Origin: Symbiodinium natans
Lineage: Eukaryota > Sar > Dinophyceae > Suessiales > Symbiodiniaceae
DNA length: 64,000 nt
Direction of reading: 5' to 3'
Assembly (NCBI GenBank): GCA_905221605.1
Contig: CAJNDS010001680.1
Span: forward strand, 490,001-554,000
Shown: positions 928 to 63,928 of the stretch, one piece after another
How positions within the stretch are numbered: position 1 is the first letter of the stretch
Layout of the letters: the number at the start of each line of letters is the position of its first letter
Notes under the pieces: generated by a model
What the model was told of the DNA's origin: nothing
The model's input: the letters and a program-made list of their open reading frames with translations, nothing else
Database searches by the model: none
Made by a program: the position numbers and the translations under genes

Positions 928-980
928 GGCGAGCTGCTGGAAGCTTGGGTTCGGACCGGAGGCGGGGCGTTGGGCGCGAA
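928..980 (+). CDS. putative exon, 17 codons (RAAGSLGSD...)
   Basis: AG acceptor at 926-927 and a GC donor at 981. It enters at phase 1 and leaves at phase 0, which fits the next island at 1654. The upstream flank is G-rich, so the usual CCCTAAA block is missing here. A TIR element starts 6 bp downstream. Another frame (GELLEAWV...) is also open. Confidence 0.35.
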
Positions 981-985
981 GCATG

Positions 986-1194
986 ACTTGGAGGTTCAGG
1001 GCACTAAGTAACCCAAGGGTTTAGGGTGTTAAGGGTTAGGGGTTTGGGGTTTAGGGTTTAGGGTTGAGGGTTTAGGGTAACCCAGTAAACGTGTGGTTGT
1101 AACCCACATAGAAGCTCCTTAAGTACCCTTAGGGTTCTACTTGGGTTAAAAGTACAGTTGTAATTGGGTTGCTAAGTACCCTGAACCGCCAAGT
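986..1194. mobile_element. family A TIR element
   Basis: ACTTGGAGGTTCAGGG at the left and the inverted CCCTGAACCGCCAAGT at the right, with inner AGTAACCC/GGGTT complements. Non-coding, MITE-like. Confidence 0.6.
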
Positions 1195-1204
1195 AACTTC
1201 GTAG

Positions 1205-1288
1205 CCCAGTGGCACCCTTTTTCCCTTAGACAGTAACCGAAAGAAAACGGTGTCCTGATTCTAACATGGTTACTGGGCTAACAAGATC
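1205..1288. mobile_element. family E hairpin element
   Basis: GTAGCCCAGTGGCACCC left and GGTTACTGGGCTA right; a second copy lies at 15525-15640. Confidence 0.55.
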
Positions 1289-1653
1289 AAGGGTTTGGGG
1301 TGTAGGCTTTTGGGAGTTTAGGTTTGGGGTTTGGGGGTTTGGGGTTTCACGGTTTCGGGTTTGTGGCGGTTGTGTTTTTGGGCTTCAGTTGAGAGATTTT
1401 GGGGGCTGAGGTCCCTTGAGTCTTTCTTGACCATGCACCCTAAAGTAAAAACCGCAACTTTTCAATCTCAGCCCTGAACCCCCTAGACCCCCGCCCGCCC
1501 TTTCCCGGGCCTTTTCTGCTGAGTACCCTGGTTAAAAGGCCTAAGTATGGGCAGACTCAGAAAGGGATCCTAAGTTAGGAAACCCCCTATTCCCTAGACC
1601 CTAGACCCTAAACCCTAAAACCCTAAACCCTAAACCCTTACTTAACCTACCAG

Positions 1654-1696
1654 GAGATCACCGACATGAAGCTCCCGGATGAGTCGCGCCTGGCAG
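1654..1696 (+). CDS. putative exon (EITDMKLPDESRLA)
   Basis: CCCTAAA repeats end just upstream, followed by a CTACCAG acceptor. The donor is CAG|GTGCGCG, and TTTAGGG repeats begin 23 bp further on. Enters at phase 0 and leaves at phase 1. Confidence 0.5.
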
Positions 1697-2592
1697 GTGC
1701 GCGAGGGGGAGGAGGGAGTTTCGGGTTTAGGGTTTAGGGTTTAGGGTTTAGAGTTTGGGGTTTGGGGCTTGGGGTTTGGGTTTCAGGGTTCAGGGTTTAC
1801 GGTTTCGGGCCGGGGGGAGGGTGTGTAGGGGCGGGGTAGGGCTTGCAGGGTTGATCCAACACAGAAGTACTTACTCTTCAAAAGTTATCCTCTTCAGACT
1901 CCAGCAATGCACTATGACCCCCCAAATAAGGCCTTCCAATTTCATAGGCCCCTATGCGAGGGGTTAATTTAGGGTTTAGCGATTGGGGTTGGGGGATCTC
2001 AGGGCTTATACAGCCCAAAAGCATGTCTCCCGAAAGGGTTGAGGGACTTCTTGGCGTTGTTTCTCTTCTGGGTTTAGGGTTTCGGGGTTAGGGTTTAGGG
2101 TTTATGGTGTAGGGTTTAGCGTTTAGGGTTTATGGTGTAGGGTTTAGGGTTTAGGGTTAAGGCCGAAAACTTAGATCAGCTCAAGGTCAGCTGGAAACTC
2201 AGAGTTGGAGCCTTCTGATTCACCCAAGTATGCTTCCAGCCAGGGCTGCGGGTTAGGGTGCAGGGTTGAGGATCTAGGAGGGTTTAGGATCTAGGAGGGT
2301 TTAGGATCTAGGGTTTAGGGTTGAGGGTTTAGTGTTTAGGGTTTAGGGGCTGCTGGCTCGGGTTCCTGTCGTATCGGAAGGTAGGGAACCCACGAGAGCC
2401 CTAACCCCCCCAAACCCGAATCCCTCCGTCCCAGATAAACCTAAACCCCCCCAAAACGCTCCGGGGTTTAGGGTTTAGGGTGTAATTTTAGGGTTTAGGG
2501 TTTACGGTTTGGGGTTTAGGGTTTGGGGTTTGGGGTTTAGGGTGGAGGATTCAGGGTTTAGGGTTACGGTTTAGGGCTTAGTATTGTGCCAG

Positions 2593-2667
2593 GGCTGAAG
2601 ATGTCTGACGACCTCGCCTCGCTGTTCTCCGGCGATACTCTTGCTTTCGTAAAGGCAGCGTGGCAGG
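2593..2667 (+). CDS. putative exon (MSDDLASLFSGDTLAF...)
   Basis: The acceptor TGTGCCAG precedes 24 full codons. The donor is the first GT of a TTTAGGG array (CAGG|GTTTAGG). Phase 1 in joins the 1696 exon with a Gly codon; phase 1 out. Codon usage is GC-rich at third positions, unlike the surrounding repeats. Confidence 0.55.
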
Positions 2668-3323
2668 GTTTAGGGTTTAGGGTTTAGGGTTTAGGGTTTA
2701 GGGTTTAGGGTTTGGGGTTTAGGGTTTAGGGTTTAGGGTGTCTATATGAGCAGTCCTTTGAATTCTGGCTTACATGGAGGTACTGAACCTCTACGCCCAT
2801 AAGCCCCATAAGCCCAATGGGCCCTATAAAGCTACACGCCCTGCAGCCCCCCGAACCCCCAAATGAGGCCAAGCGCTGAAAACCCCAAACCCTAAGGCCC
2901 TAAGACTATTCCTAAACCCTAAACCCTAAACCAAATTCCTTTAACCCCAAATCCTAAACCTAAACCCTAAATCTTAAATTCCCGAAACCCTAAACCGTAA
3001 CCCTAAATTCCCACCCGGCCTGTTTTGTCCGTACCCACACTTTTCTAGCACACCCTGAATGTGCCGGGGCTCCACTTCCACGTGGTATTTACGGCCGCTG
3101 CACGGCGAGACGCCCTAAGCCCTAAACCAAACCCGAAACCCCAAACCCCAAACCCTAAACCAAACAAATCCTAAACCCCAAACCCCAAGCCCCAAGCCCT
3201 AAACCCAAAAAATCCTAAACCCTAAACCCTAAACCCCAAACCCCAAACCCTAAACCCTAAACCCTGAACCTGCGCAGGAGCCCGTGCCCTGGGCCTCCCA
3301 GCCTCTGGCCGGCGAGTCCTTAG

Positions 3324-3363
3324 AAGCCCGCGCGCTCTCGGCCGCACTTCGGGAGCTTCAGGG
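3324..3363 (+). CDS. putative exon (ARALSAALRELQ)
   Basis: CCCTAAA-type repeats run to 3267. The acceptor GTCCTTAG gives phase 1 entry, continuing the 2667 exon as ...AAWQ-E-ARAL. The donor lies in GGGGTTTTAGG, phase 2. An earlier acceptor at 3275 (GCGCAG) would extend the exon upstream, but the better frame there (EPVPWASQ...) needs phase 0. Confidence 0.5.
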
Positions 3364-3978
3364 GTTTTAGGGGTTGGGGATTTAGGGTTTGGGGTTTAGG
3401 GTTTGGGGTTTAGGGTTTGGGGTTTAGGGCCTTATTTTAGGCTTTAGGGGGTTTAGGGTTTAAGGTTTGGGGGTTTAGGGGATTGGGGGTTTAGGGGTTT
3501 AGTGGTTTAGGGGATTGGGGGTTTAGGGGTTGGGGGTTTAGGGTTCAGGGTTTGTGGCCGCACTTCGAGAGCTTCAGGGCTTCAGGGTTCTGGGGGTTTG
3601 GGGTTTAGGGTTTTTGGGGTTTGGGTTTGGGGTTTAGGGTTTGGGGTTTAGGGTTTGGGGGTTTGGGGTTTAGGGTTTTAGGGTTTTAGGGTTTAGGGAT
3701 TTGGGGTTGGAGTTTTGGGGTTTGGGGTTCTGGGGTTTGGGGTTGGGGTTCAGGGTTCAGGGTTCAGGGTTCAGGGTTCAGGGTTCAGGGTTCAGGGTTC
3801 AGGGTTTAGGGTTTAGGGTTTAGGGTTATGTCTTTAGAGTTTAGTATTTAGGGTTTGGGGTGGGGTCCTGGGGTTTAAGGGAAGCCCGATTTGGGTGCGC
3901 AGGTTGGGGTTGGATATACTTTCGTGCATGTTTGGGGGCTGCATGGGGGTTAATGGGTGCAGTTGAGGTCCCCACAAC

Positions 3979-4048
3979 AAACCCTAAACCCTAAACCCTA
4001 AACCCTAAACCCTAAACCCTAAACCCTAAACCCTAAACCCTAAACCCT
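3979..4048 (-). repeat. CCCTAAA telomere-like array
   Basis: About 10 perfect units on +, opposite in orientation to the array about 110 bp downstream. Confidence 0.95.
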
Positions 4049-4154
4049 GACAGGGACCCTTAAACGCATACTAAGCCAAATGAGCCCCAGGCCTCACAAG
4101 CCCTAAGCCCCAAACTTAAACAAAGCCCCAACAAGGCGTAAAAAAACGACGAGC

Positions 4155-4245
4155 CTAGGGTTTAGGGTTTAGGGTTTAGGGTTTAGGGTTTAGGGTTTAG
4201 GGTTTAGGGTTTAGGGTTTAGGGTTTAGGGTTTAGGGTTTAGGGT
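4155..4245 (+). repeat. TTTAGGG telomere-like array
   Basis: About 13 perfect units, intron 5'-side orientation. Confidence 0.95.
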
Positions 4246-4341
4246 ACAGTTTATATATTGCTTTCGGGTGTATAGGGTGTTAATTGGGTGTTACTTCACC
4301 CGCGCCCCTGTCGAGAACCTTTAGATTCACGCCCAGGTGAG

Positions 4342-4405
4342 GCGGTGTGCGCCGACCGCCGCACCTCTTTCGGAAGGGGCATGGAGGCAGTCCGGATGCG
4401 GTCAA
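4342..4405 (+). CDS. putative exon, frame uncertain
   Basis: GC-rich island between a TTTAGGG array (4155-4245) and CCCTAAA repeats (from about 4419). Two frames are open: one starting G|CGG, which fits phase 2 entry and phase 0 exit at CAA|GTCTG, and one reading EAVCADRRTSFGRG. The island is coding-like; the boundaries are weak. Confidence 0.35.
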
Positions 4406-5198
4406 GTCTGAGGGGTCTTAAACCCTAAACCCTCAACCCTGAACCCTGAACCCTAAACCGTAAACCCTTAGGGTTTTAGGGTTTAGGGTTTAGGGTTTAG
4501 GGTTTGGGGTTTAGGGCTCCACAAAAAAAGTGGTTTTGGGGGTTCTGAAGGAAGGGTTTAGTTTACAGGGGTTGGTGGTCTCTTTAAGTAGGGCTTCTGT
4601 CTCCTAGGGGCGCATACTCGGGGTTCTTGTTAGGGTATCTTGGGGCCGAAGTCAGGGCAATCAGACAGCATGATACCGCTTTTTGTCTGGGGTGCGAAGG
4701 GGAGTCCTGGTGGAGGTGTATGCTGTTCGCTCACATATTGATGGGCTCATCACGCCCTTCGAAGCAGAAGGTGCTTCTGCGAGGGTTGTTCAGGTTGAGG
4801 GTTGAGGGTTGAGGGTTGAGGGTTTAGGGTTTAGGGTTTAGGGTTCAGGGTTTAGGGTTTCTTTTTTCAGGATTGCGAATTATGGCATGGAGGGGGCTCG
4901 TGAGTTGTGTCTTTTTGCCGGGTTAGCTTGCCTGTTAGATGTGCTTTTGCTTGTAACTGTGTATGTGGTTTGTCCCTAAACCATAGGCCCGAAACCCCAC
5001 ACCCCCGAATGCCAGGAAGCGTAAATCCTAAACTTCAGGCCACAAACCCGCCAAACCCTCCTCACCCTAAACCCTTACCCTGAACCCTCGACCCGAAAAA
5101 GTTAAACCCTGAACCCTAAACCCGACTTCAGCGTTCAAGCTTGTGGTGGCTTTGGGTGTCGGGTTGCGGGGCCAACATGAGCGTGGCATCCGGCCCAG

Positions 5199-5242
5199 GC
5201 AGAGCCCGTGTCCAAAGCAGATGGAAAGGCCTGCAGAGTCGG
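5199..5242 (+). CDS. putative exon (AEPVSKADGKACRV)
   Basis: The acceptor CGGCCCAG and donor CGG|GTTTGGTGG enclose 14 codons. Phase 0 in agrees with the 4405 exit; phase 2 out agrees with the island at 15888. The intron that follows is the one invaded by the copia element. Confidence 0.45.
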
Positions 5243-5416
5243 GTTTGGTGGTTCACCCTAAACCCTGAACCCTAAACCCTAAACCCCAAACCCCAAACCC
5301 CAAACCCCTAGAGGGTTGATAGAACCTGAGCATGCTTGGTGCTGTTTATCCATTTCTTTCAGAACCATGTACCTGTGTAGTATACACATGGCCCCTAAAA
5401 GCTACTATATAGGAAC

Positions 5417-5477
5417 CCCTAAACCCTAAACCCTAAACCCTAAACCCTAAACCCTAAACCCTAAACCCTAAACCCTA
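5417..5477 (-). repeat. CCCTAAA array, copia target
   Basis: Perfect units interrupted by the copia insertion; continues at 15405 in phase. Confidence 0.95.
5473..5477. repeat. target-site duplication CCCTA, left
   Basis: CCCTA abuts the left LTR and recurs at 15405-15409. The 5-bp size suits Ty1/copia, but the repetitive CCCTAAA target makes the match partly automatic. Confidence 0.7.
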
Positions 5478-5706
5478 TACGGGGGGCAACCGAAGGAGGA
5501 CAGGGAACAAGACAGTCAACCCCAGCAGAAGCCCTTATTACCCCTGGAACAACCAACAACCGAACAGCAAGACCCCAAACCAAGGGTACACTTTTTACGA
5601 AACCTTCGACCGCTTTGGTCATGGCTTGAGCCAAAGATTACCGGGTTCATTGACCCTTCAACCTCCAATACCAACTCCTTTCTACAATACCAATTGCAGC
5701 TCCGCA
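5478..5706 (-). repeat. 3' LTR of copia element
   Basis: 229-bp partner of the LTR at 15176-15404, starting TGCGGAG and ending CCCCGTA on the minus strand. It contains TTTGGCTCAAG (5625-5635), matching the 3' end of the dinoflagellate spliced leader. Confidence 0.95.
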
Positions 5707-5716
5707 CTCCCCCTGT
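5707..5716 (-). promoter_or_regulatory. polypurine tract
   Basis: On the minus strand ACAGGGGGAG sits immediately upstream of the 3' LTR start TGCGGAG, the expected position of the plus-strand primer. Confidence 0.75.
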
Positions 5717-5891
5717 CCTAGGGTTTCCTAGGACACATTGGAGGTGCAGATCTTTGGCCAAAAACCGCCATTTAGGCAGCAGCCAGCTGCTTGAAATGCA
5801 CATTGTGGTTTAACGTCTTCCAGGACGAACCTTCAGCTCATTGGCTGAATCCTTTACCATTGAGGATTTCTTCACCTCGCACTTGGAAAAT
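5717..5891 (-). other. 3' untranslated region of copia element
   Basis: 175 bp between the TGA stop (5892-5894) and the polypurine tract. No further coding sequence recognised. Confidence 0.6.
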
Positions 5892-8800
5892 TCACGTTCC
5901 AGCGGCTCGTTCCTCACCAAGGAACTCAGCATTCACCACCCAGCCATCCTTGAGGCAATGCTTACAAAGCGTCTTAGCTCTGAGCTGTGAATATCGCAGA
6001 ACATCACAATCACTGCTTGCGTGCATACAGTTCCCACCCACTGTTGTATACAAAGTGGCACTCGCAGGAATAACCACCGCTTTCTTTATCCACAGCCATT
6101 TATACAGCCGTCGAAAGAGGCACCATGCCAGTTCCCAGAGTATAATTGCTGCCACCAAATACGCAACAAGGTCTGAATTGTTGACAACCATTTCAATACC
6201 TTGAGCCAGAACCATCACCGTAGACGTGTTGGCGACCTTGCACACCCCTTCTTCTGAGCAAAAGAATCCAGCCGTGGACACTTCTTCGCCACCAGTTGCC
6301 ATCCCTTGCAGAGATGCAGCCACCATCATGACCGCCATTGCAAGCGAGGCTTTTTTCAAGTCAGTCCCTTGTACCAACAGTCGGAGACCCCAAAGTGCCT
6401 TTTGCTTTGCGTACACCTGTCCACTCATCAACTTAGTCAACAGGTCAGCGATCATATACTCACCGCGAAGATGCGCTATCACCATATAACCACGGTCCAC
6501 CAGAGACCTGACACCGGCTGCTCGAATTCTCAGGTGTCTTGTCCTCCAGCTTCCAGCAGGATATTGAATGATCGAGCACGTTGAAACCGAATCTGTATAC
6601 AGCACTTTTTGCAGCGATTCTTCACCTGTTCCAACCAAAGCAGCAATTATAGGGGTGCACGACTGAATCATCGTTGCTCCCTCTATGGACGCATGTAATT
6701 CAGCTTCAGCTGTACTTAAAGCCACCGTTGATTGTCTCTGTGTTGCCCACATCACTGGACAGTCACCCCACACCACTACCGCTCCTGAGTGGCTCTTTTC
6801 ATTTTCACCTGCTGCAAAGCTGGCATCCGCGTAGGACTCCACCACCTTAACACCTCGTCCATAACGCAACACCTCATTCCTTTCTTTTTCGCATGTTGCG
6901 ATTGCTCCGAACGTCAAGCCTAACGTTGGAGTTGCAGCAAGGTATCGGAAAACCTCCTCAGCCTTTTTAACCACAAATCGCGGCCTTCGGGATGTCCACA
7001 AAGACAACTGACTCGTGCAGAACGCCAAATCAGGTCGAGTTTTGATTGCCACCCAGAGGAACTCCCCTACGGCACCTTGTGCCGCTCGCAAGGAAGGAAT
7101 ATCCACCTCCTCTTCTTCACCTGGAGTTTCTTTCACCATTGGCAGGTTACTTCCTTTTCCAGTTTCATCGATCTGATACCCTCGTCGGTTCAGCAAATCT
7201 CTCACAAAGTCCTCCTGGTTGAGAAAGAAGCTGCCATTTCGATACCAGATTTGGACACCTAAAAACTTCAGGAATCCATCACCGCAGCCTGGACCACAGA
7301 ACTCGGGTTCAGAAGTTTTCCACTCCTTCCTAATCTGTTCCAAGGCCTCCCGGAGCACTGTCATAGTCCCAGCCATCAAAAAATCATCCACGTAAAGACC
7401 CATTGTCCCTACCAACTTGCTTGCACCTTCCGGCTTTTCTTGTGCCATAATAAGGAACAGACTTGGGTCTGCATTGGACCTCTGAAAGCTCATTGCTTGT
7501 CCATCCTTTGACACCCAAGACATACCTTGAAGACGTTGGTCTCGCCACTCCACCCATGCTGCAGGACTTTCGGCCAAACCGTACAAGGCCTTCCTCACAA
7601 TCCACCGCTCCTCTTTTGTGCAAAGACCCAATTTCACCGCCGCCCTTGGGGGCTGCACCACCACCAAACGCCCTTCTCTTTGCGCCCTATTCATCGGCGC
7701 CGTCAGAAAAGCTTTGGAAATGTCTAAGCCAGCGATGATCCACACCATATATGCTGCGTGCCTCACTTGACACCTGAATGTAGTTGAATCTAAACCTGGA
7801 GCGTACAGCGAGTGACGACTGAGTGACCTCGGCCCTTCATATTCTGTAGCTGCCGTTGACGAAATGAAGTTTCCACATGCACAGATACGGGCACGTCGCC
7901 TCCCTGTCCCTTGCTTCCGGGTAAACACCACCAGACTGGGAACGTACTCAATCACCGGTGCATTAGGCTCTTCCGCCAATTTGTCCAGCTTTTCTTGAGT
8001 TGTTGGTTCTACCACCTCCAACTCTTTCACCAAAGACGTCACCTCGTCCGACAATGATTCCCTCCACTTTTCCAGCTCTTGCATGGCTTCCTGTGTAGGG
8101 ATTGTTTTTGTTTGCAGAAACTCAACCTCCTCTGCTGCCTCAAGCGCAGTATTTTCTTGTACCATTTGCTGAACTTGAGCTGCTTTGACCAAAAACTTCG
8201 ATAGCTGTTCCTCAGCCCTTTTTGCTTTAACCAGCCATTCTCTAGTCTCTGATCCTTTTTCTTCACTCGACTCATTGGCCGATCCATGGAACTCGTCCAA
8301 GATGCAACATTCCTGTTCAGCAATTAGGCGTCGAATACTCAAATGCTCCTCCAGAGCCCATTGATGCGCTTCGAACACAGCGTAGTCGACTTCCTCTGCA
8401 AGGTCGTCCAGCGAGGTCTCTTTCAACGTCATTTTTAACCACTTCCTTTTTTCACCTTCTTCAGCCTGTGGTTCCGGAAGAGGAAACTTGCATTGGAGAA
8501 GATAGCACCTATCCTTGTAGCTCAAACGCTCCATAAAAACAGGTGTGTACCCTGTCAAGGATACCCTGTTTCCTTTCCAAGGCATAGGGCCATGCAGCTT
8601 TCTCGGAAAGAACGACATGAAGTTCCAGTGGATATCCACCAATTTTCCAGGTAGGACTTTCTTCCCATAAGATTGCTCCACTACTTCAGCTCCTTCCTCT
8701 AAAACCTTTTCATCCTCAGCCCACAGCTGACCATCTTTATAGTCACCAAAGCCACACACATAATTGCAGCAATGTTTTTCATTGTGACTATCCCTATGCA

Positions 8801-15113: not shown

Positions 15114-15163
15114 GGCGTTAAACAAACGAAAAATCTTTACCAATTCCGCAGGAAGCCTAATTT

Positions 15164-18585: not shown

Positions 18586-18587
18586 GT

Positions 18588-53440: not shown

Positions 53441-53736
53441 GTTTAGGGTTTAGGGTTGAGGGTTGAGGGTTTAGGGTTTAGGGTTTATGGTTCAGGGTTC
53501 ATAGGGTTTAGGGTTTAGGGTTTAGGGTTTTAGGGTTTAGGGTTTAGGGTTTAGGGTTTAGGGTTCACAGTCTAGAACTCATGGTTGAGGGGTTCAGGGT
53601 GCAGGGCTTTTAGTGCACTGGAAAAATGGGAAACATCCAAAACTACCCTGGGCCCTAAACCCTAAACCCTAAACCCTACACCCTACACCCTAAACCCTAA
53701 ACCCTAAACCCTCAACCCTAAACCCTAAACCCTAAG

Positions 53737-53817
53737 GTGGCCAACCATGGTGGCCCGAGACCGGGAAACCTAGGCAAGTACAACACCCTGGGCTCTTCGG
53801 ACGCCCGGACGTGTGGG
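53737..53817 (+). CDS. putative exon (VANHGGPRPGNLGKYNTLGS...)
   Basis: The acceptor CCCTAAG closes a CCCTAAA array. 27 codons to GGG|GTTAGGGTTTAG. Phase 0 to 0. Confidence 0.5.
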
Positions 53818-53917
53818 GTTAGGGTTTAGGGTTTAGGGTTTAGGGTTTAGGGTTTAGGGTTTAGGGTTTAGGGTTTAGGGTTTAGGGCTCAGGGTTTAGG
53901 GTTAGGATCCCTTGTAG

Positions 53918-54106
53918 CTTCCGTCAAATGTCACTGCCTTCACCATTACCCTCCATGAAAAGGAGATACAAATCGCATCGAATGCCACGAGGGTTTGCTT
54001 GCCCCTCTTCACTTATGACAAAAACGAAGACTTCGTCGGTCGCATCAGCCCACTATCGCGCCGTGTCAGCCCGCGCATTGCGGCCAGAGGGTCAAGAGAC
54101 CGATAA
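53918..54106 (+). pseudogene. orphan coding-like fragment (NVTAFTITLHEKEIQIASNA...)
   Basis: A 62-codon frame bounded by stops, with natural composition (FTYDKNEDFVGRISPLSRR). A longer overlapping ORF (53928-54281) in another frame looks less protein-like. It lies in intron position between a TTTAGGG and a CCCTAAA array. Not recognised. Confidence 0.35.
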
Positions 54107-54412
54107 AGTCAATTCGAAGCAACGGCGTCAGCAGGACAGCGCGACAAGCTATGTTTCCGAGTGCTGTCAAGTGGTTGATGGGGGGTTTCCGAAATTTGGG
54201 CGTGCCCTTGTTGGGGTCCTTCTGATAAGGGAATCCTACCATTTCGGCGTCTATTGTCGGGGTCCCCCTATACAACCCTAAACCCTAAACCCTAAACCCT
54301 CATGTCTCGTGGCGACCAAGCTTCTCTACAAACGTGCCGGGATTTCAGGTGAATGACTTGGCCTTTTAGCTTAAAGGGCTTGCAGCCCCCAAAGCCCGAA
54401 GAATCACAACAT

Positions 54413-54509
54413 GGGATGTTCCCCCTTATACAGTCCGTAATGGGGCTGAGAATAGGGGGGTAGTGTAACCCCTATTTAAGGACTGCTAGTATGAGGGGGG
54501 AACATCCCA
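54413..54509. mobile_element. family G TIR element
   Basis: GGGATGTTCCCCCTTATACAGTCC left, inverted GGACTG...GGGGGGAACATCCC right. Confidence 0.75.
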
Positions 54510-54779
54510 AAGCACAACCTTTAAGCCCCAGGCAAAAACGCAACAAAGCCCTAAACCTCCCCATGTCCAGGCGGCTGCAGCCCAACCACCCACTGGCAAC
54601 GGTCGCGAAGAACACCCCCAACAACCCTTCAAACCTAAGCCCCACACCCTAAACCTAAACCCTAAACCCTAAACCCTAAACCCTAAACCCTAAATCTAAA
54701 CCCTAAACCCTAAACCCTAAACCCTAAACCCTAAACCCTAAACCCTAAACCCTAAACCCTAAACCCTGACTCTTTGAAG

Positions 54780-54857
54780 GACCCCTCCTTGGAGCAGTTC
54801 GCTGCGGCGCTTCCGAGTCCCGGCCGCGGCAAAGACCTGAGAAGATGCACCTTGGAC
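54780..54857 (+). CDS. putative exon (DPSLEQFAAALPSPGRGKDL...)
   Basis: CCCTAAA array ends at 54766; acceptor CTCTTTGAAG; 26 codons to GAC|GTCCAAGG. Phase 0 to 0. The same frame runs 10 codons further to TAG at the start of a TTTAGGG array, so either the donor is earlier or this is a C-terminus. Confidence 0.5.
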
Positions 54858-54950
54858 GTCCAAGGCACCAAGACATAGGGTTTAGGGTTTAGGGTTTAGG
54901 GTTTAGGGTTTAGGGTTTAGGGTTTAGGGTTTAGGGTTTAGGGTTTAGGG

Positions 54951-56156
54951 CGTTTAGGGTTTAGGGCGTTTAGGGTTGAGGCCTAGGGTTTCGGGTCGAG
55001 GGCGTTCAGGGCTTAGGGCTAGGGCTTAGGGTTTAGGGTGTTTAGGGTTTAGGGCTAGGTTTAGGGTTTTTGGGGTTTTAGGAGGTTTTAGGTGTTTAGG
55101 GGTGTAGGGTTTACGGGTTTTAGGGGCTTAGGGTTTTAGGGGTTAAGTGTTTTTTTTTTTTTTTTTTTTTTTTTTTTTGGGGGGGGGGGCGTTTTGTGGT
55201 TTCAGGGTTTTGGGATTTGGGGGTTTAGAGTTTTCAGGTTTTGGCGTTTTGCGTGTTTAAGGATTTGTTTTTTTTGTTTTTTGAGTTTTTAGGGTTTCAG
55301 GGTTTTAGGGTTTTTTGGGTTTGGGGTTCTAGCGGTTCTAGGGGTTTGGGTTTTAGGGGCTTAGGGTTTAAGGGGTTTAGGAATTTTGGATGTTCTGGAA
55401 TTTTTGGGTTTTGGGATTTTAGGGTTTTGGGTTTTTGGTTTTAGGGTTTAAGGTTTTTTTTTGCAGCTTTTGGGATTCGGGTTGTTTGGGGTTAGGGGTT
55501 TAGGGTTTCGGGTTTTCCTGGTTTGAGGTTTTTTAGGCTTTTGGCGTTTTGCGATTTGTTGTTTTAGGTGTTTTGTTGTTTTTTGAGTTTAGGGTTTTAT
55601 TTTTGTTTTGTTTTTTTTGGGGGGGAGGGGGGGCGTTGGTGGATGTTTTGTTGTGTTTTGTTTTCGGGCTTTTGGGGTTTCAGGGTTTTGGGTTTTAGGG
55701 TTTGAGCGTTTAGGGCTTTAAGGTGTTGATGGTTTTAGGGTTTGAGGGTTTGAGGGTTTTAGAGTTGGTTTGTTGGGTTGTTGGGTTTTTCTTGGGGTTG
55801 TTGGGCTTCTAGGGTTTAGGGTTTCAGGGTCTAGGGGTTAGGGTTGTTTTAGGGTTTTAGGGTTTAGGGTTTTGGGTTTTTGGATTTTGGGGTTTTTGGG
55901 TTTTAGGCGTCTAGGGTTTTACGGTAGTGGGGTTTTCGGCCGCAAAGCTCGCCTTACATCTTACATACCATCTTGCATACCTTACATTCCACATACAGCT
56001 TGCAGCTCCCTGGAAAGCCAATTGTGCCCCTAAACCCTGAACCCTAAACCCTAAACCCCGAACCCTAAACCCTAAACCCTAAACCCTAAACCCTAAATCC
56101 TAAACCCTAAACCCTAAACTCTAAACCTTACAAACCCTTAACCCTGAAACCCTAAG
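54951..56156. other. intron-like stretch, T/G-rich
   Basis: Degenerate TTTTAGGG/TTTTGGG sequence with a T-run then G-run at 55150-55189, turning to CCCTAAA at 56020. No gene. Confidence 0.6.
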
Positions 56157-56241
56157 CCGCAAACATGGGACTCTGGCAAACGGATCATGCGGGGCCACTC
56201 TTTCGGTGCGCTGGGCTTGGATCATTGGCATGCTTGGCAGG
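56157..56241 (+). CDS. putative exon (PQTWDSGKRIMRGHSFGALG...)
   Basis: The acceptor CCCTAAG is part of the C-array. 28 codons, donor CAGG|GTTTAGGG opening a 60-bp TTTAGGG array. Phase 0 in, 1 out. Confidence 0.55.
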
Positions 56242-56311
56242 GTTTAGGGTTTAGGGTTTAGGGTTTAGGGTTTAGGGTTTAGGGTTTAGGGTTTAGGGTT
56301 TAGGGCCCTAA

Positions 56312-56443
56312 GCACTCGTCAACCAGGCCATTCACACCATTAAAAACACCATGCCCTTCGTCGAACAACAAGTGGCTGCACAACTCGCGTCAGCCATCCA
56401 AGACATCCACCAGTGGATAGCACAAACACTGGGGAGAAGCTGA
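56312..56443 (+). pseudogene. orphan coding-like fragment (ALVNQAIHTIKNTMPFVEQQ...)
   Basis: 43 codons and a TGA, starting right after a TTTAGGG array and followed by CCCTAAA repeats. The Gln-rich helical C-terminal end (QLASAIQDIHQWIAQTLG) suggests the tail of a retroposed gene or a transposon protein. Confidence 0.35.
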
Positions 56444-56722
56444 AGCCATTGCAGTTGACAGCCAGTCTCAACAACCAGTCCCGGCCCAGCCCCGAACCCT
56501 AAACCCTAAACCCTAAACCCTAAACCCTAAACCCTAAACCCTAACTCCTAGACCCTAAACCCTAAACCCTCGCCCTAAACCCTAAACCCTAAACCCTAAA
56601 CCCTAAACCCTAAACCCTAAACCCTAAACCCTAAACCCTAAACCCTAAACCCTAAACCCTAAACCCTAAACCCTAAACCCTAAACACCAACCCTAAACCC
56701 TAAACCCTTAACAGCTTGGCAG

Positions 56723-56751
56723 CATGCTCCCGGCTCCTAGACCGGCTGAAG
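56723..56751 (+). CDS. putative exon (CSRLLDRLK)
   Basis: Acceptor AGCTTGGCAG, donor AAG|GTTCGAAGG. Phase 1 in completes an Ala codon; phase 0 out. Confidence 0.45.
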
Positions 56752-57378
56752 GTTCGAAGGTTTCAGTGGGTGAAAGGCCTTTTAGGTTTTAGGTTTTAGG
56801 GTTTAGGGTTAAAGGTTTCAGGGTTATAGCGTGTCGGTTTTTAGGTTAAGGGCGTCAGTGGTTTAAAGTGCCTCATCGGTTTTAGGGTTTTAAGATTTCG
56901 GGTTTTGGGTCAAGCGGGTTAGGGGTTTAAAGTTCTACCCTCCCTCCCCCCGCCCCGCCATCTGAGTCTCCAAATACTCCAAGTAGGGTTGTGAATCACA
57001 GATTATGAGGGCCGATTCTTGGTTGGTCGGTTGGTTGGTTGGGTTTTGGATTTTGGGTTTAGGGTTTGGGGTTTTGCGTTTTGAGTTTTGGGTTTAAGTT
57101 TAGGGGGAGGGGGGGGGGCTAATGGTTTCAGCTTGGCCCCCGGGGGCTACCCTTGTTTTTATTTAGTGCATATATATATATATATATCTATATACATATA
57201 TATGTAATATACTATAATATACTGTAGTAATATATGTGTATATATATATGTATATATGTAGAATACTAACCCTAGGTCGTAAACCCTAAACCCTAAGCCC
57301 TTTGAGGTTCAGGGTTCCCCTAGCTGATCTTTGATTGCAGAAGAGTCTCGCCACAGCCCAGGCCTAATTCCCTCCGAG

Positions 57379-57429
57379 GGCCTTGTCCACCTCATTGCGC
57401 AGGCAGCAGGGAAGCATGGGGGATTCAGG
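57379..57429 (+). CDS. putative exon (GLVHLIAQAAGKHGGFR)
   Basis: Acceptor TTCCCTCCGAG, donor AGG|GTTCAGGG, followed by TTTAGGG repeats. Phase 0 to 0. An upstream acceptor at 57352 (GATTGCAG) would extend the same frame by ESRHSPGLIPSE at another entry phase. Confidence 0.5.
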
Positions 57430-57775
57430 GTTCAGGGTTTTGTTGCTTTCCGGGTTTAGGGTTTAGGGTTTAGGGTTTAGGGTTTAGGATTTGGGGTAGG
57501 GTTTAGGGCTCAGGGATCAGGGTCTAGGGTTGACCTTAAGAGGCCCCCGAAAACCCACCGTTGCCTAGGTCGCGCAAGGCTGGGTTGTGCCCACATAGCC
57601 TACAGACGATTGGGCTGAAGTCCGAGCCCTCCAAGCACTAAAAAACCCTAAACCCCAAGATGAAGACCTAGAAAGCCCCAAGCATCCCTAACTGCCTCAG
57701 AACCCTAGCCCTAAAACCCCAAAACCCCAAAACCCCAAAACCCCAAAACCCCAAAACCCCAAACCCCAAACCCCA

Positions 57776-57921
57776 AACCCTAAACCCTAAACCCTAAACC
57801 CTAAACCCTAAACCCTAAACCCTAAACCCTAAACCCTAAACCCTAAACCCTAAACCCTAAACCCTAAACCCTAAACCCTAAACCCTAAACCCTAAACCCT
57901 AAACCCTAAACCCTAAACCCT
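57776..57921 (-). repeat. CCCTAAA telomere-like array, the longest
   Basis: About 20 perfect units just upstream of the 57928 exon; preceded by a CCCCAAAA variant at 57717-57758. Confidence 0.95.
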
Positions 57922-57927
57922 ACCGAG

Positions 57928-57992
57928 GAGGCGGCCAAGGCCGCGCAGGCAGGGAAAGGCCTCGACGGCTCATTGTTGAAGGCCCCCCCTGG
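57928..57992 (+). CDS. putative exon (EAAKAAQAGKGLDGSLLKAP...)
   Basis: CCCTAAA array of about 145 bp, acceptor CTACCGAG, 21 codons, donor CTGG|GTTTAGGG. Phase 0 in, 2 out. The exit does not fit the next good island, so a small exon near 58132 (CTTCGCAG acceptor) may be missing. Confidence 0.55.
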
Positions 57993-58933
57993 GTTTAGGG
58001 TTCAGGGTTTGGGATTTAGGGTCTGGGGTTTGGGGTTTAGGGGTTTAGGGTTTGGGGATTAGGGTTTAGGGTTTAGGGTGTAGTGTTTAGGGTTTAGGGT
58101 TTAGGGTTTGGAGGGTTTAGGTGCCCTCCTTCGCAGGCGCAGGGAGCCCGACACCCCGTGATTAAGGAGGTTTCGGGTTTAGGGTTTCGGGCTTTGGGTT
58201 TAGGTATACCCAGAGTGCCCCAAACCCCCGAAGTTGAGGAATGTAATGTTGAAGTATATTATATAGGGATCCTAAATATGATTTAGTTCATGTTCCTCAA
58301 TTTAGCGGTTTTGGGCTCTTTGCGGGGGTTTGGGGTCAGATGCTTGGTGTGCTTAGGGGAAGTATTAGGGTGTTAAGGTAGTAGGGTGTTAGGGTGTTAG
58401 GGAATTGGGGATGAGGGTACTAGGGTGTTAGGGTATTGGGGTAGAAGGGCATTAGTAAGGGTACTAGGGTTGTGTGTATGCGTGTGTGTTCTGTTGCCTT
58501 AGCTCTCGATCTTTTGTGTCTGAGTGTGCGTGTGCGCGCGCATATGCGCGCTTCTTCTTTTTGCGCTTTCGAGCTTTTCGAGCTGCAGCACCACAACAAA
58601 AGCGGCTTGTGTGCGTGTGGTTGAGGAGTGTAGGGGTTTTGAGGTTTCATGTCATGTTTATGGGGATTTAGGGCTCTGCGCTTTGGGTTCAGTCGGTTTG
58701 CTAGTGCGGACCGTACGTGATGTCTTGCGAGCTTTCTGATCCCAGGCGACCGCGATAAGATTCATGGTTAGCGTGGAGTCCAATTTTGAAGGAGCCCTAA
58801 AGCACAAATCCTACAACCCTAGACCCTAAACCTCAATGAAGCCCTAAACCCTAAACCCTAATTTAAGCCCTAAACCCTAAACCCCCTAACCCCCTAAACC
58901 CCCGGAACCCCCCGGAACCTCCGAAACTGCCAG

Positions 58934-58999
58934 GAGAGCGAAGACGACGATCTCGGCTTCGTCGCCGGCTTGCCTTGCCTCAACGTCGCCCTAGCGGAG
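58934..58999 (+). CDS. putative exon (ESEDDDLGFVAGLPCLNVAL...)
   Basis: Acceptor GAAACTGCCAG, 22 codons, donor GAG|GTCGCTGG. Phase 0 to 0; CCCTAAA left, TTTAGGG right. Confidence 0.55.
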
Positions 59000-59661
59000 G
59001 TCGCTGGAGGGTTTGCTTTATGGGGTTAGGGTTTAGGGTTTGGGGTTTGGGGTTTGGGTTTACGGGTTTACTGGTTTACGGGTTTACGGGTTTACGGGTT
59101 TACGGGCGTACGGGCTTACGGGCTTACGGGTTTTGGGTTTAGGGTTTAGGGCTTGGGGTTCGGGGCTGTTTCATGGGCTGAGTGAGGTTTTAAGTTGGGG
59201 TGCAGAGGTCAGGATGTACATTTTTGGGCTTAGAGTTGATAGGAGTTTCAGATTACCCTAAACCCTAAACCCTAAACCCTAAACCCTAAGCCCTAAACCC
59301 TAAACCCTAAACCCGGTTTGGGGCTCAGTGTCTAGGCTTCGGGGACTCCCTCAGTTAACTGGGCTGTCTTTGGGTCCAGGGTGCAGGGTTTAGGGTTTAG
59401 GGCTTGCATTTAGAACCTCAAAGTAAACCTTAAACCCTAACTAAACCCTGAACCACTAAGCCCCAAGCTCCTAAACCCTACACCCTGCACCCCTAAACCC
59501 GAGACCCCTAAGCTCTAAACCCAAAGCCCTAAACCTTGAGCCCTAAAGCCTAAAGCCTAACGCCTGAACCCTAAGCCCTAAACCCTAAACCCGAAACCCT
59601 AAACCCTAAACCCTGCAAGCCCTGGTGTGCTCTTGCACGGCTTGGCGGCTGGTTTCATCAG

Positions 59662-60048
59662 CAATTCATGCCATTGGCGGCCTCCCTTTGGCAGAGCGTG
59701 GTGTTGGCGGACCCAGCTGCGTTCGGCCCGTGTGGCATGGCTGAGCAGGACATGCTCAATATCCTCTGTGGTTGGCCAAACGCAAACAACTCCCCGTCTG
59801 AGTTGAGTGGCTGGCAGAGTGAGTTGCGGCGATTCCTGAGGGACCCTTGCCAGGGTAAGCTGATCCGTGTGGTCACTGGGCTTGACATCGCTCACAACCT
59901 CGATGGGGCCAGCGTCTTTGACATGTGGCAAACACCCATCGCAAGCACCCGTGAAGTGAGGGTTGACGCCGAGGTGGGAGGGACCACCGAAGACTTGTTG
60001 GGTCGCGAGCTGGACGAGTGCATGGGCACGACAGATGAAGCCGGGTGA
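59662..60048 (+). CDS. hypothetical coding segment, about 129 codons
   Basis: A long open frame with natural composition (GWQSELRRFLRD, VVTGLDIAHNLDG) follows a CCCTAAA array and the acceptor GGTTTCATCAG; the frame is open upstream to about 59616. A GTAAG donor at 59855 would end an exon there at phase 1, which fits the next island. The frame otherwise ends at TGA 60046-60048. It could be a larger exon of the giant gene or an inserted intronless fragment. No domain recognised. Confidence 0.45.
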   Translation, partial: QFMPLAASLWQSVVLADPAAFGPCGMAEQDMLNILCGWPNANNSPSELSGWQSELRRFLRDPCQGKLIRVVTGLDIAHNLDGASVFDMWQTPIASTREVRVDAEVGGTTEDLLGRELDECMGTTDEAG

Positions 60049-60494
60049 TGTTCTTCAGGAGCCACAGGTGTGAAAGCTGTAGCAGATTCTTGAGAGTGAT
60101 AGCCCCACACATGGCAAGATTTCCTGCTCTCAGAAGGGCATCTTCCATACATGGGGTGCTTCCTCGTATGCACCATGTCTGGCTCAGACATGTTTGTTAC
60201 TGTTTGTTTGTTTGTTCCTGCAAAGTCCTCAGATGCAGTTGGGGTCCGGGCCTGAGCTCAATGTAGCTCTTCAGGCATTTGCAGGAGGGTTTCGGTTTTC
60301 TTTTGGTTTGCCTTTCGCCTTTGGTGCCAACGAGTGCCAGAGTGTGGACTTGCTATGTAGTCCTGCAGGCGGAGGGTGCTTGGCACCACCCTAAACCCTA
60401 AACCCTAAACCCTAAACCCTAAACCCCAAACCCCAAACCCCAAACCCTAAACCCTAAACCTAAACCCTAAACCCTAAGCAGCGAACCCCTGTAG

Positions 60495-60553
60495 AGGCCG
60501 CAGGGCCCGTGTGGCGGCGTGGCGCCCAGGCGCTGGTTCAAGCGCTTGGCCCG
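60495..60553 (+). CDS. putative exon (AAGPVWRRGAQALVQALGP)
   Basis: Acceptor CCCCTGTAG, donor CCG|GTTCCAAG, then TTTAGGGG-variant repeats. Phase 1 in, 0 out. All three frames are open in this GC-rich stretch. Confidence 0.4.
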
Positions 60554-61259
60554 GTTCCAAGCAACGGGATTTAGTGGATTTAGGGGGTTTAGGGGTTTAG
60601 GGGTTTAGGGGTTTAGGGGTTTAGGGGTTTAGGGGTTTAGGGGTTTAGGGGTTTAGGGATTTAGGGGTTTAGGGGTTTAGGGGTTTAGGGGTTTAGGGGT
60701 TTAGGGGTTTAGGGGTTTAGGGGTTAGGGTTTAGGGGGTTCAGGGTGTTTGAGGCGTTCAGGGGTTTAGGAACTTAGGGCTTTCCAGGTTTGGGGTGTGT
60801 GCGGCGTTTGGGGCGATTAGCGTTGACGTGGGCCCTCACCCCGAACCGCGCTGAGGGTGGATGTATGTCTAACCCTAAACCCTAAACCCTAGGATCTTAA
60901 AGCCTAAAGGGGCCGAAGGTGCCGAGGCAAGGCAACCCAAGTCTGCTAGCTAAGTCTCACTCCTGGGATTTTAGGGTTGTAGGGTTTAGAGTTTAGGGTT
61001 TAGGGTTTGGGGTTTCGGTGGGTTTTAGGTTTGGGAGCGTTTTAAGGCGTTGGAGGGTTGAGGCTTCCGGCTGCAGCTTGGAAGAACCCTGAACCCCGAA
61101 CCTTCGTCCCGCCCCCAGGCTAGCTTCTTGTTTCTGAACCGCCGAGACGTTAGTAGGTTCTACCAGCATTCACACAACGTCTTGGTTTTAGAGTTGTATA
61201 TATAATATAGGATAACATTACACCAATACATTGCGGGGATGCAGGTAGAACCGACTAAC

Positions 61260-61275
61260 ACACACACACACACAC

Positions 61276-61314
<39 letters not shown>

Positions 61315-61370
61315 TTTTTATGTATGTATATATATATATATATATTTATTTATTTATTTATTTGCTAAAT
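61260..61370. repeat. (CA)n/(TA)n/(TTTA)n microsatellite
   Basis: CACACA, long TATATA and TTTATTTA tracts. No gene. Confidence 0.9.
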
Positions 61371-61518
61371 ACATACATCAACATATTTTTGCACAGCCAC
61401 AGAAGTATATGTAAATACTCTATGTGAATATCACATGTAGGAGATATAAAGGTATAGATATGGAGTATCGCCAGCAAAATTGGGCGGCGCCCACGAGCGT
61501 GTCTTTGCAGGTTTGCAG

Positions 61519-61575
61519 ATTCCCGCTGCCGCCGTGGAACAAATGCAGGCCCTGCGCAAGCTGTACGCTTCAGGG
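61519..61575 (+). CDS. putative exon (IPAAAVEQMQALRKLYASG)
   Basis: Two tandem acceptors (GTCTTTGCAG at 61510 and TTTGCAG at 61518). 19 codons, donor GGG|GTGTAGGC. Phase 0 to 0. The upstream flank is an AT microsatellite region instead of a C-array. Confidence 0.5.
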
Positions 61576-61755
61576 GTGTAGGCTTGGAGGGTTTAGGGTT
61601 TAGGGTGTAGGGTTGGTTTAGGGTCAAGCGGGGGTTTGGGGTTGAGGGTTTTGGGGCATAAACTAGAAGCCCCTAAAGCCTAAACCCTAGGGCGTAGCCT
61701 GCGGCTCTTTGTTCCCCATACAGTGTGTCAACCCAAGGGGGTTCCAGGTGTAGGA

Positions 61756-61893
61756 AGTCTTGGAGGTTCAGAGTGCTTATAATGAGTAACCCATTTTATG
61801 TGTAGTCATAACCCACACATTGGACATAAGCCCCTTAATAACAGGGTTATAATTGGGTAATACAGTTGTATGTTACTAGGTACCATGATAGCC
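61756..61893. mobile_element. family A TIR element, degenerate
   Basis: The left end CTTGGAGGTTCAGAGTGCTTA is kept; the right end survives only as TTACTAGGTACCATGA. Confidence 0.5.
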
Positions 61894-61995
61894 CCCCCAA
61901 AACAGTAGAATTCCCTTACACTGAGCACCCCAAGAAGGTAGGGTTTAGGAGGTGTCCGCTTGTGACTCATTTCCCATATTTGGGTTAAAGAAAAT

Positions 61996-62412
61996 GCCCC
62001 TAAGGGTCCATGTACTTAAATAGGGAATACTTGGGCCCCTAAAGTACCTCCTACTGTGGATGGACAAAATCTTGCATGACCCCCTACGTTGCACGTGTGC
62101 GACGGTTGGTAATCGAGCTCCCCGCACCCCTCGAATTTCAATGTTGCACGCGCATATGGGTGATGCAGGATTTCGGTCGGACAAGACAAATGACTGACTT
62201 GTTGGCATGTTGCACGCGCATATGGGTGATGCAGGATTTCGGTCATTCACACGCATGCACTTTCGAAGCATTGCAAGGACAGCAATGTTAAGATTCAGGG
62301 TTTGGAAGGGATGACCTGCGTGATAAAAGTGCTGCAGGATTTCGTCCATCAACAGTATTTAGGGACTTTTGGACCCAAGTATATAATGATGAGGTACATG
62401 GACCCTTCGGGG
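61996..62412. mobile_element. family C TIR element with internal duplication
   Basis: Outer ends CCCCTAAGGGTCCATGTAC / GTACATGGACCCTTCGGGG. The interior has GATGGACAAAATCTTGCA inverted as TGCAGGATTTCGTCCATC, plus a 65-bp tandem duplication (GTTGCACGCGCATATGGGTG at about 62143 and 62208). Confidence 0.65.
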
Positions 62413-62610
62413 TTATAGGCACCATCATAGTCTGTAGGACCAATCAACCAACTGTGAGCCCATGAGGGGTTCAAACGAGAGGCTGTTCTAAGCCCAAAAA
62501 GCCCTAAACCCTAAACCTAAACCCTAAACCCCACTTACCCAAAACCGTTTCAGGCACAGGTTTGTACGGATGTCTTCAAGCTTGTCGGTTCCTTGAAACC
62601 TATTTTACGA

Positions 62611-62727
62611 ACCCTACTTGGTGGGGTTTGGGGTTTGGGGTTGCCCCTTAAGTAACTTAATAGGGATATAGTTGCGTTATAAGTGCAGCTATGGCTGGGT
62701 TACAAAGTACCATGAACCTCCAAGTAA
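62611..62727. mobile_element. family A TIR element, degenerate left end
   Basis: The right end ACCATGAACCTCCAAGTA is intact; the left end is replaced by TTTGGGG repeats after TACTTGG. Confidence 0.5.
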
Positions 62728-63090
62728 GCAAACCGTAAACCCTTCAACCAGAAGCCTTCAAGCTCGAAGCGCTGAACCCCAGAAAGCGCCTAGGGTTTAG
62801 GGTGTAGGGTTCAGGGTTTAGGGTATGCAACCCTCAACCCTAAACCCTCGTTCGCGCAACGCTCGGCTTTTCTTCCAACCTTCTTGCCACTGGTGCAGAA
62901 TGAGTCGAGTCTTCACACAAAACCCTAAAGCCTCAACCCCAAACCACCCTACTCCCTAAACCCTGAAACCCTGACTCCTCAAGGCCCCTAACCCTAAACC
63001 TAAACCCTAAACACCAAAACGATCGAAGGTTTCAAGCCCCCAGCCTAACGGCCCCTGACCCTAAACCCCAAACCCCAAACCCCAAACCCC

Positions 63091-63187
63091 AAACCCTAAA
63101 CCCTAAACCCTAAACCCTAAACCCTAAACCCTAAACCCTAAACCCTAAACCCTAAACCCTAAACCCTAAACCCTAAACCCTAAACCC
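63091..63187 (-). repeat. CCCTAAA telomere-like array
   Basis: About 14 perfect units before the 63223 exon. Confidence 0.95.
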
Positions 63188-63222
63188 TCTAAACCCTAAA
63201 CCCTAAACCCTGACATCTCGAG

Positions 63223-63273
63223 GCGGCAATCGAAGGGAGGCTCCAGAGAACTGACAGAGGTCGATGGGCTCTG
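63223..63273 (+). CDS. putative exon (AAIEGRLQRTDRGRWAL)
   Basis: CCCTAAA array, acceptor CATCTCGAG, donor CTG|GTATTTTTC. 17 codons, phase 0 to 0. Confidence 0.5.
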
Positions 63274-63280
63274 GTATTTT

Positions 63281-63398
63281 TCGGGACGGAATAATTCCTA
63301 ATAGTCATTCCCTTATGGTCCCTGTGTAATGATACTAACATACCCCCCCCCCCAAATCCCCTATTCTGATTATTAAGGCCCTGAAATTATTTGGGTTG
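63281..63398. mobile_element. family D element
   Basis: GGGACGGAATAATTCC...TTCCCTTATGGTCCCTG...CCTATTCTGATTATTAAGGCCC. Confidence 0.55.
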
Positions 63399-63649
63399 AG
63401 GACTCAGGGTTCAGATTTAGGTTTGGGGTTAGGGTTTAGGGTTTGGGGTTTGGGGTTTGGGGTTTAGGGCTACCAGGCAGCCTCCCTCGCATAAACGCTG
63501 CCGGTCCTCACCCCTGATTCCCCAAAGCCACCACCCCAGCCCCCCTCGATTTTGTTCACGGGCATGCTTTGCCTTTCGGACCCTCAAAGTCTCATACCAT
63601 GTAGAACCACATCCGAAGGGCCATCAGTGTGAGCAGTTCGAGAATTTCC

Positions 63650-63774
63650 GCTTAAGGGTCCATGTACCCATCTGGTACATACTTGCCCGTGAATCAAAGG
63701 GCTTCCCTTATGCCGTAGCTTTAGGACCCAACTATCGTATATACTACTTAAAAGGTACATGGGCCCCTTAAGGT
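63650..63774. mobile_element. family C TIR element
   Basis: CTTAAGGGTCCATGTACCC left, GGTACATGGGCCCCTTAAGG right, just upstream of the last exon. Confidence 0.65.
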
Positions 63775-63835
63775 TTCCTCCCCCCGAAAAGCCCCCGCAT
63801 CCCTGGCCGCAGGTCCCCGCGCCGCGCCCTTGCAG

Positions 63836-63928
63836 GGACCCACGCGCGGGCTCCCCGACTTCATCGCGGCCACCCGGGCGCAGACCCAGAGGCCCCATCC
63901 CTACGAAGCTTACGAGGCAGCTACTTAG
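63836..63928 (+). CDS. putative (terminal?) exon (GLPDFIAATRAQTQRPHPYE...)
   Basis: Acceptor GCGCCCTTGCAG, phase 0 in. The frame runs 30 codons to TAG at 63926-63928. A GC donor at GAG|GCAGCTAC (63917) would instead continue the gene beyond the window. Confidence 0.5.
   Translation, partial: GPTRGLPDFIAATRAQTQRPHPYEAYEAAT

Follow-up and report, generated by a model that had tools for sequence, protein, structure and literature searches.

What places telomere-type repeats just inside the introns of a gene, facing opposite ways at the two intron ends? We addressed this question in a 64,000-nt stretch of Symbiodinium natans DNA (contig CAJNDS010001680.1, positions 490,001 to 554,000, forward strand; hereafter "the window"), in which tandem arrays of TTTAGGG and CCCTAAA lie between short coding-like islands. 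An original prediction, made from the letters alone, read these islands as one giant, exon-dense gene whose introns start with TTTAGGG and end with CCCTAAA, telomere-repeat DNA having itself become the sequence that forms or bounds introns. Protein homology and array counts in the window support a single plus-strand gene with tiny exons, in which the orientation of the arrays depends on the adjacent splice site.

One gene of tiny exons on the plus strand

A first query of 588 aa, the joined translations of islands picked by eye between arrays, matched two proteins: P0001 from Symbiodinium CCMP2456 (E 1.2e-55) and P0002, which carries only a EukProt label (E 2.4e-15). A second query, P0002 fused to the later part of P0001, found P0004 (Effrenium voratum, 1937 aa) and P0003 (Symbiodinium CCMP2592, 1607 aa). 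Because P0003 is one protein spanning both halves, the two halves are one gene, at least in the Symbiodinium CCMP2592 annotation.

Using our own spliced protein-to-DNA aligner, which allows GT, GC or GA donors and AG acceptors, we found that P0003 residues 609-1389 match 46 exons, in order, on the plus strand between 893 and 63901. The alignment score is 1888, compared with 423 on the reverse complement, 383 for the reversed protein, and 456, 373 and 422 for three shuffles. The predicted coding on one strand thus holds, and the predicted single exon-dense gene is supported: P0003 alone fits the 46 exons in order, which for these islands answers the objection that they might match unrelated genes. 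Exons have a median length of 52 nt and total 2290 nt, with 500 of 747 aligned residues identical to P0003, and intron length varies from 372 to 11482 nt across the 45 introns, with a median of 933 nt. Two P0003 micro-hits, at 186-194 and at 9687-9697 (the latter within a long terminal repeat (LTR) element), were excluded from the exon counts. The joined exons are free of stops in the aligned frame for 300 nt up to 4405 and for 1990 nt from 15888 on. The junction from 4405 to 15888 spans the LTR element, and its true course is ambiguous; in the P0002 alignment, the exon at 4337 ended at 4389, with a possible further exon at 5199-5228.

The P0004 alignment agrees with that of P0003 at many junctions in its later part; its first gene part looks spurious and was left unused. 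In the 612 columns that the three proteins have in common, identity to the window is 70% for P0003 and 50% for P0004, and P0003 and P0004 are 48% identical to each other, which by itself would place the host as a dinoflagellate near Symbiodiniaceae. Neither Pfam nor solved structures matched the portion of the gene inside the window. P0002 carries a TPR_20 match and P0003 has TPR_20 and thioredoxin matches below curated cut-offs, all in N-terminal parts beyond the window. By homology, then, the window is predicted to be the middle of one spliceosomal gene, both ends of which lie outside it. Coding score with exon chaining alone (chain totals 200.9 on the plus and 107.2 on the minus strand) was rejected as circular, since its training exons were chosen by eye, and homology was used instead.

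The introns are of the dinoflagellate spliceosomal type, with a G[T/C/A] donor and an AG acceptor followed by G. Donors are GC in 31 introns, GT in nine and GA in five (G[TCA] being forced by the aligner), and the base after the acceptor AG, which the aligner does not force as it does the AG itself, is G in 43 of 45. GC and GA donors, introners with inverted repeats and TTTAGGG telomeres are all established in dinoflagellates (PMC11453091, PMC7789003, PMC10666404).

Arrays are oriented by splice sites

TTTAGGG is reported as the telomere repeat of other dinoflagellates (PMC11453091). The tandem arrays seen here are internal to a gene, and their equation with this species' own telomere unit rests on those reports. 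We refer to TTTAGGG-type and CCCTAAA-type arrays as G-arrays and C-arrays, respectively. Exact runs of two or more units number 92 for TTTAGGG and 87 for CCCTAAA (116 and 113 under a fuzzy definition), and 178 of these 179 exact runs fall inside the 45 introns. Fuzzy 7-mers of the two types make up 14.2% and 12.8% of the window, respectively.

For each intron, we scored the first array after the donor and the last array before the acceptor. Within 60 nt of the donor, the array is of G type in 31 introns and of C type in five, with none in nine (n=45; p 1.3e-5); within 60 nt of the acceptor, it is of C type in 33 and of G type in one, with none in 11 (n=45; p 4e-9). The intron spanning the LTR element is counted here as C-first. 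A stricter set, restricted to exact arrays and to the 32 of 46 exons that pass a tighter identity threshold, shows the same polarity: the donor side has G in 20, C in three and neither in eight cases, and the acceptor side has C in 21, G in one and neither in 10. The arrays are inset from the splice sites: a G-type first array lies a median of 25 nt from the donor (1-405 nt, 37 introns), and a C-type last array a median of 21 nt from the acceptor (7-440 nt, 39 introns). Only one of 45 introns starts with GTTTAGGG, the predicted boundary being G|GTTTAGGG, and one of 45 has CCCTAAA in its last 14 nt. Telomere-type DNA therefore lies just inside both ends of most introns, as the prediction had it in part, but the repeats themselves are not the splice sites.

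Viewed from the exons, 45 of the 46 sit in one classified island each, the last being placed past the last array. Thirty-three of these islands have a C-array on the left and a G-array on the right (C..G), as had been claimed for most; the remaining 12 depart from it (6 C..C, 4 G..G and 2 G..C). The further claim that this order never reverses fails on these 12 exons, and 21 of 54 C..G islands of at least 40 bp hold no homology exon. C..G order is nonetheless found in 33 of 45 islands with an exon compared with 21 of 138 without one (at least 40 bp; odds ratio 15, p 1e-12), so the polarity belongs to exons. Because a C-left, G-right arrangement is its own reverse complement, a constant order carries no information on strand, which is set by the protein match.

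The two ends of an intron behave independently. End pairs are G..C in 31 introns, G..G in six, C..C in eight and C..G in none, with no association between ends (Fisher p=0.57), and the lengths of the two end arrays are uncorrelated (rho 0.05, 31 introns). Complementary arrays on the two sides of an exon likewise show no association (Fisher p=0.29).

A pattern of two C-units, a gap of 85-115 nt and two G-units has 18 overlapping matches at 12 places, six of which contain a homology exon; it occurs in none of 100 dinucleotide shuffles, a weak null for such a pattern since shuffling destroys arrays. The array-gap-array pattern had 0 matches in viral_contigs and 0 in genome_contigs, which comprise viral and prokaryote records and may omit those close to the genome of the window.

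How splicing may have oriented the arrays

The account that we favour, and hold tentatively at a little under an even chance, is that telomere-type repeats spread through the introns and that splicing filters, or uses, their orientation. Arrays would have spread in both orientations through introns that at least partly existed before them, and beside exons one orientation would survive, splicing testing each side independently. Upstream of an acceptor, CCCUAAA would bring no AG and would offer a branch-point-like CUAAA together with C-rich sequence, while an array of UUUAG|GG would present a series of false acceptors. Downstream of a donor, UUUAGGG would lack the commonest donor context, AG|G[CUA], though GG|GU is present, and its GGG runs may help the donors, which are mostly the weak GC type. 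CTAAA is branch-point-like, and GGG runs and UAGGG-binding proteins may have a role in splicing here.

The acceptors are consistent with such a filter. TAGG makes up 952 of the 1794 intronic NAGG sites, 788 of them TAGGG, in telomere-type context. The acceptors used are CAG in 20 introns, GAG in 15, AAG in nine and TAG in only one (n=45), a scarcity of TAG with a chance of 0.003 even against the non-telomeric share of TAGG. The CCCTAAA unit, the type that precedes most acceptors, contains no AG.

Two or three of the 45 junctions bear on the age of the introns through the gene models of relatives. P0002 carries a 7-residue insert relative to P0003 exactly at the window junction 645/646. It also departs from P0003 beside junction 937/938, the same place at which P0001 joins P0003. 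Since gene models often err at intron edges, these disagreements suggest that the introns concerned probably exist in Symbiodinium too. Gap blocks within one residue of a junction number 6 of 16 in P0001, 1 of 3 in P0002 and 4 of 21 in P0004, where 17% of positions would be expected; those of P0001 lie nearly all in its non-homologous part and are hence uninformative. What the sequence itself shows is a single plus-strand gene by homology, with tiny exons and arrays whose sense depends on the splice site; that the arrays spread, that the introns came first, that splicing selects orientation and that the arrays in any way aid splicing are inferred.

Several observations weigh against this account. 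The acceptor side fits the filter well, but the donor bias of 31:5 is explained only by the assumed effect of G-runs, as a C-array in that position would seem harmless. G-arrays themselves contain GG|GU, a possible false donor, and AG precedes only 20 of the 45 real donors. The acceptor is not simply the first AG past the last C-array, a rule that we rejected because 18 of 33 acceptors skip one or more. A preference for a G-array ahead of a C-array extends into intron interiors, where 86 of 129 unlike pairs show it and 26 of 2000 shuffles reach as high a count; a filter acting only locally does not predict this. Short junctions of opposed arrays also occur. The scarcity of UAG acceptors may date from earlier in the lineage, and that the introns pre-date the arrays is only a hint from the gene models. 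The counts, moreover, come from one gene in one window.

Alternative explanations

The strongest rival, unlikely in our estimate yet to be taken seriously, is that telomerase capped both sides of breaks inside introns and that rejoining then produced exon-(TTTAGGG)n ... (CCCTAAA)n-exon. Such healing predicts the exact sense seen at both ends, the independence of each end and the lack of target-site duplication (below), and, with fuzzy units, 14 of the 63 gaps from G to C measure 7-35 nt, so that the arrays stand nearly head-to-head. Short gaps are, however, found at a similar rate where C precedes G (10 of 64 gaps), and when only exact arrays of two units are counted, the 48 G-to-C spacers include one of 27 nt and otherwise none below 84 nt. 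Healing would also make exonless islands C..G, and only 21 of 138 are.

We are likewise doubtful that the telomere repeat has become, in this lineage, an orientation-coded splicing signal, with UUUAGGG marking the end of an exon and CCCUAAA the approach of the next. Such a signal could define exons as short as 24 nt, UAG|G acceptors being given up in return.

Introner elements, in the form of mobile DNA with telomere-repeat terminal inverted repeats that entered exons and became introns, are an origin that we regard as improbable here. Introners are known in Amoebophrya, Prorocentrum cordatum and Polarella, and dinoflagellate introners with inverted repeats and with direct repeats at their boundaries have been described (PMC7789003, PMC10666404). 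The likeness lies in inverted repeats near both intron ends, an intron-rich dinoflagellate and non-GT donors: in 31 of 45 introns the first array is of G type and the last of C type, and 27 of 45 carry an inverted repeat of at least 8 nt within 60 nt of both ends. The published definition (PMC10666404) asks that an inverted repeat of 8-20 nt and a direct repeat of 3-5 nt both lie in the 30 nt nearest each end. At 30, 60 and 100 nt, inverted repeats of 8-20 nt occur in 4, 27 and 34 of 45 introns, and in 5.3, 24.2 and 31.4 when ends from different introns are paired. Mismatched ends score alike, as would be expected if all arrays share one repeat, and the repeat is therefore not specific to a pair.

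Three measures of target-site duplication show no excess. Across junctions, direct repeats have a mean length of 2.80 nt in true donor-acceptor pairs and 2.74 nt in mismatched ones; the longest shared word near splice sites is 4.91 nt in true and 5.16 nt in mismatched pairs; and direct repeats flanking arrays are 3.42 and 3.32 nt, respectively. Since there is no such signal and 41 of 45 introns miss the inverted repeat at the published distance, we do not file these introns as introners. Unlike in introners, the inverted repeat here is of telomere type, variable in length and set about 20 nt inside the splice sites, and we saw no element body common to most introns: in a telomere-masked self-search, the largest of the 12 groups listed has five places in the window. 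The absent duplication signal and the weak hint that some introns are older than the arrays leave the predicted formation of introns by telomere repeats unsupported.

Pairing between arrays in the RNA, which would either zip each intron or form a stem displaying each tiny exon, strikes us as a poor explanation of the orientation. We computed minimum-energy folds for six chosen segments, two of them overlapping, in which 42-96% of array-array pairs enclose exactly one exon (264/420, 331/345, 121/209, 187/283, 126/212 and 168/399). Pairs formed between a G-array and a C-array further on, with no exon enclosed, number 19, 0, 33, 66, 12 and 154, fewer than the exon-enclosing pairs in all six, so the zipper across introns is disfavoured; we rejected it on these folds and on the lack of association between intron ends. 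Complementary arrays are equally unassociated across exons, and pairing alone would accept either sense. If stems do form in the cell, the modelled folds would leave exons looped, which might help or hinder their inclusion and might favour circular RNA.

Finally, such arrays are hard to assemble, yet an assembly artefact or chimaera is highly implausible, as the 46 exons follow a relative's protein in order and have open frames, and the arrays come in many lengths and variants.

Relation to known systems

The arrays are best described as interstitial telomeric repeats of an unusual kind, oriented with respect to splice sites and housed in dinoflagellate introns that are otherwise ordinary. Like interstitial telomeric sequences in general, they are telomere-type repeats away from chromosome ends; unlike them, they comprise 179 exact arrays within 64 kb, of which 178 lie in introns of a single gene and follow its splice sites in orientation. 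Plant telo-boxes are single short telomere motifs near genes, and resemble the present repeats in that position; here, instead, most exons have long arrays to their left and right. Telomere-repeat insertions associated with breaks, reportedly described by Nergadze in 2004, would also place telomeric repeats at internal sites, whereas here two opposed arrays, usually with filler between them, are linked to exons. Our searches of the open-licence PMC literature turned up no account of telomere-type arrays whose orientation follows splice sites. Rfam gave no match at gathering thresholds, and neither strand matched any of three spliced-leader forms, which we compared as possible leader relics.

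The locus ties a chromosome-end repeat to gene structure. If the arrangement is general in the genome, it would show either how telomere repeats invade introns while splicing filters them or how they are recruited as exon marks. It also offers a directly testable setting in which to ask how spliceosomes recognise 50-nt exons with GC donors when UAG|G decoys number in the hundreds. Tallies of introners that rely solely on inverted repeats close to intron ends might include repeats that are not mobile elements.

Exons and other elements of the window

Table 1. Positions of the arrays and of the 46 exons in the window; fractions are residues identical to P0003 in the spliced alignment.
Feature	Position	Strand	Basis
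Telomere-type arrays, both orientations	825..63469	.	exact and fuzzy unit counts
Exon, weak	893..961	+	10/23
Exon	1654..1696	+	9/14
Exon	2593..2657	+	15/21
Exon	3278..3331	+	8/17
Exon, right edge ambiguous (next junction spans LTR element)	4337..4405	+	15/23
Exon	15888..15909	+	5/7
Exon	16824..16874	+	14/17
Exon	17762..17797	+	9/12
Exon	20900..20935	+	7/12
Exon, weak in P0003, served as hand-picked seed	21624..21683	+	8/20
Exon, sole TAG acceptor	22685..22708	+	6/8
Exon	26276..26316	+	12/13
Exon	27450..27481	+	7/10
Exon	29353..29404	+	7/16
Exon	30447..30483	+	7/12
Exon	31259..31318	+	13/20
Exon	31863..31920	+	13/19
Exon, short	32755..32771	+	4/5
Exon	33900..33958	+	14/19
Exon	34331..34373	+	8/14
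Exon	34939..34990	+	12/17
Exon	35542..35603	+	14/20
Exon	36765..36836	+	23/24
Exon	37910..37948	+	13/13
Exon	39089..39162	+	22/24
Exon	39949..39997	+	16/16
Exon, short, weak	43606..43619	+	2/4
Exon	44553..44583	+	10/10
Exon	45926..45955	+	9/10
Exon	47137..47171	+	8/11
Exon	47733..47805	+	12/24
Exon, weak	49329..49383	+	6/18
Exon, weak	49862..49926	+	6/21
Exon, sole one whose intron starts GTTTAGGG	50416..50493	+	19/26
Exon	51395..51470	+	19/25
Exon	52064..52116	+	14/17
Exon	52698..52748	+	13/17
Exon	53401..53424	+	8/8
Exon	54780..54846	+	9/22
Exon	57362..57402	+	8/13
Exon	57928..57981	+	8/17
Exon	58934..58999	+	18/22
Exon	60497..60548	+	11/17
Exon	61511..61548	+	7/12
Exon, weak	63223..63267	+	7/15
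Exon, last in window	63836..63901	+	15/22

Two open stretches lie outside the homology exons. The C..G island at 33515-33614 has an open frame, a coding score of 17.5 (circular, as the island was a hand-picked training seed) and no P0003 exon, and is perhaps a lineage-specific exon. At 59656-60048 on the plus strand, an open stretch of 130 codons ending in a stop is skipped by the P0003 alignment and has no Pfam match.

A Copia-type LTR retrotransposon on the minus strand (5480-15404) sits inside a C-array of an intron. Its LTRs are identical at 225 of 227 positions, and its one open frame of 3037 residues has an RVT_2 match and belongs with a protein cluster (P0006) of 550 members, 98% identical over the region searched; by these measures the element looks young and abundant. 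Nested in the intron at 22709-26275 is an open frame without introns (24257-25707, plus strand) that has RCC1 repeats and a weakly ubiquitin-like start. By exact two-unit arrays it is flanked by a C-array (to 24070) and a G-array (from 25895); with fuzzy units, the closest array is of G type to the left and of C type to the right.

Palindromic copies resembling miniature inverted-repeat transposable elements, with ends near ACTTGGAGGTTCATGGTACT, lie at 17119-17273, 21014-21165, 37280-37434, 40113-40225, 42868-43013 and 62658-62727. They form two self-search groups, and some appear by eye to lie inside telomere-type arrays, with an apparent TA target. At 19900-20450, a long array of TTTTGGGG, the ciliate-type unit, adjoins an AT-rich stretch, and (CTA)n runs occupy 18588-18887. 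At 40736-42806, a GC-rich unit is repeated three times, about 0.8-1 kb apart, the copies being 62-82% alike in the parts compared.

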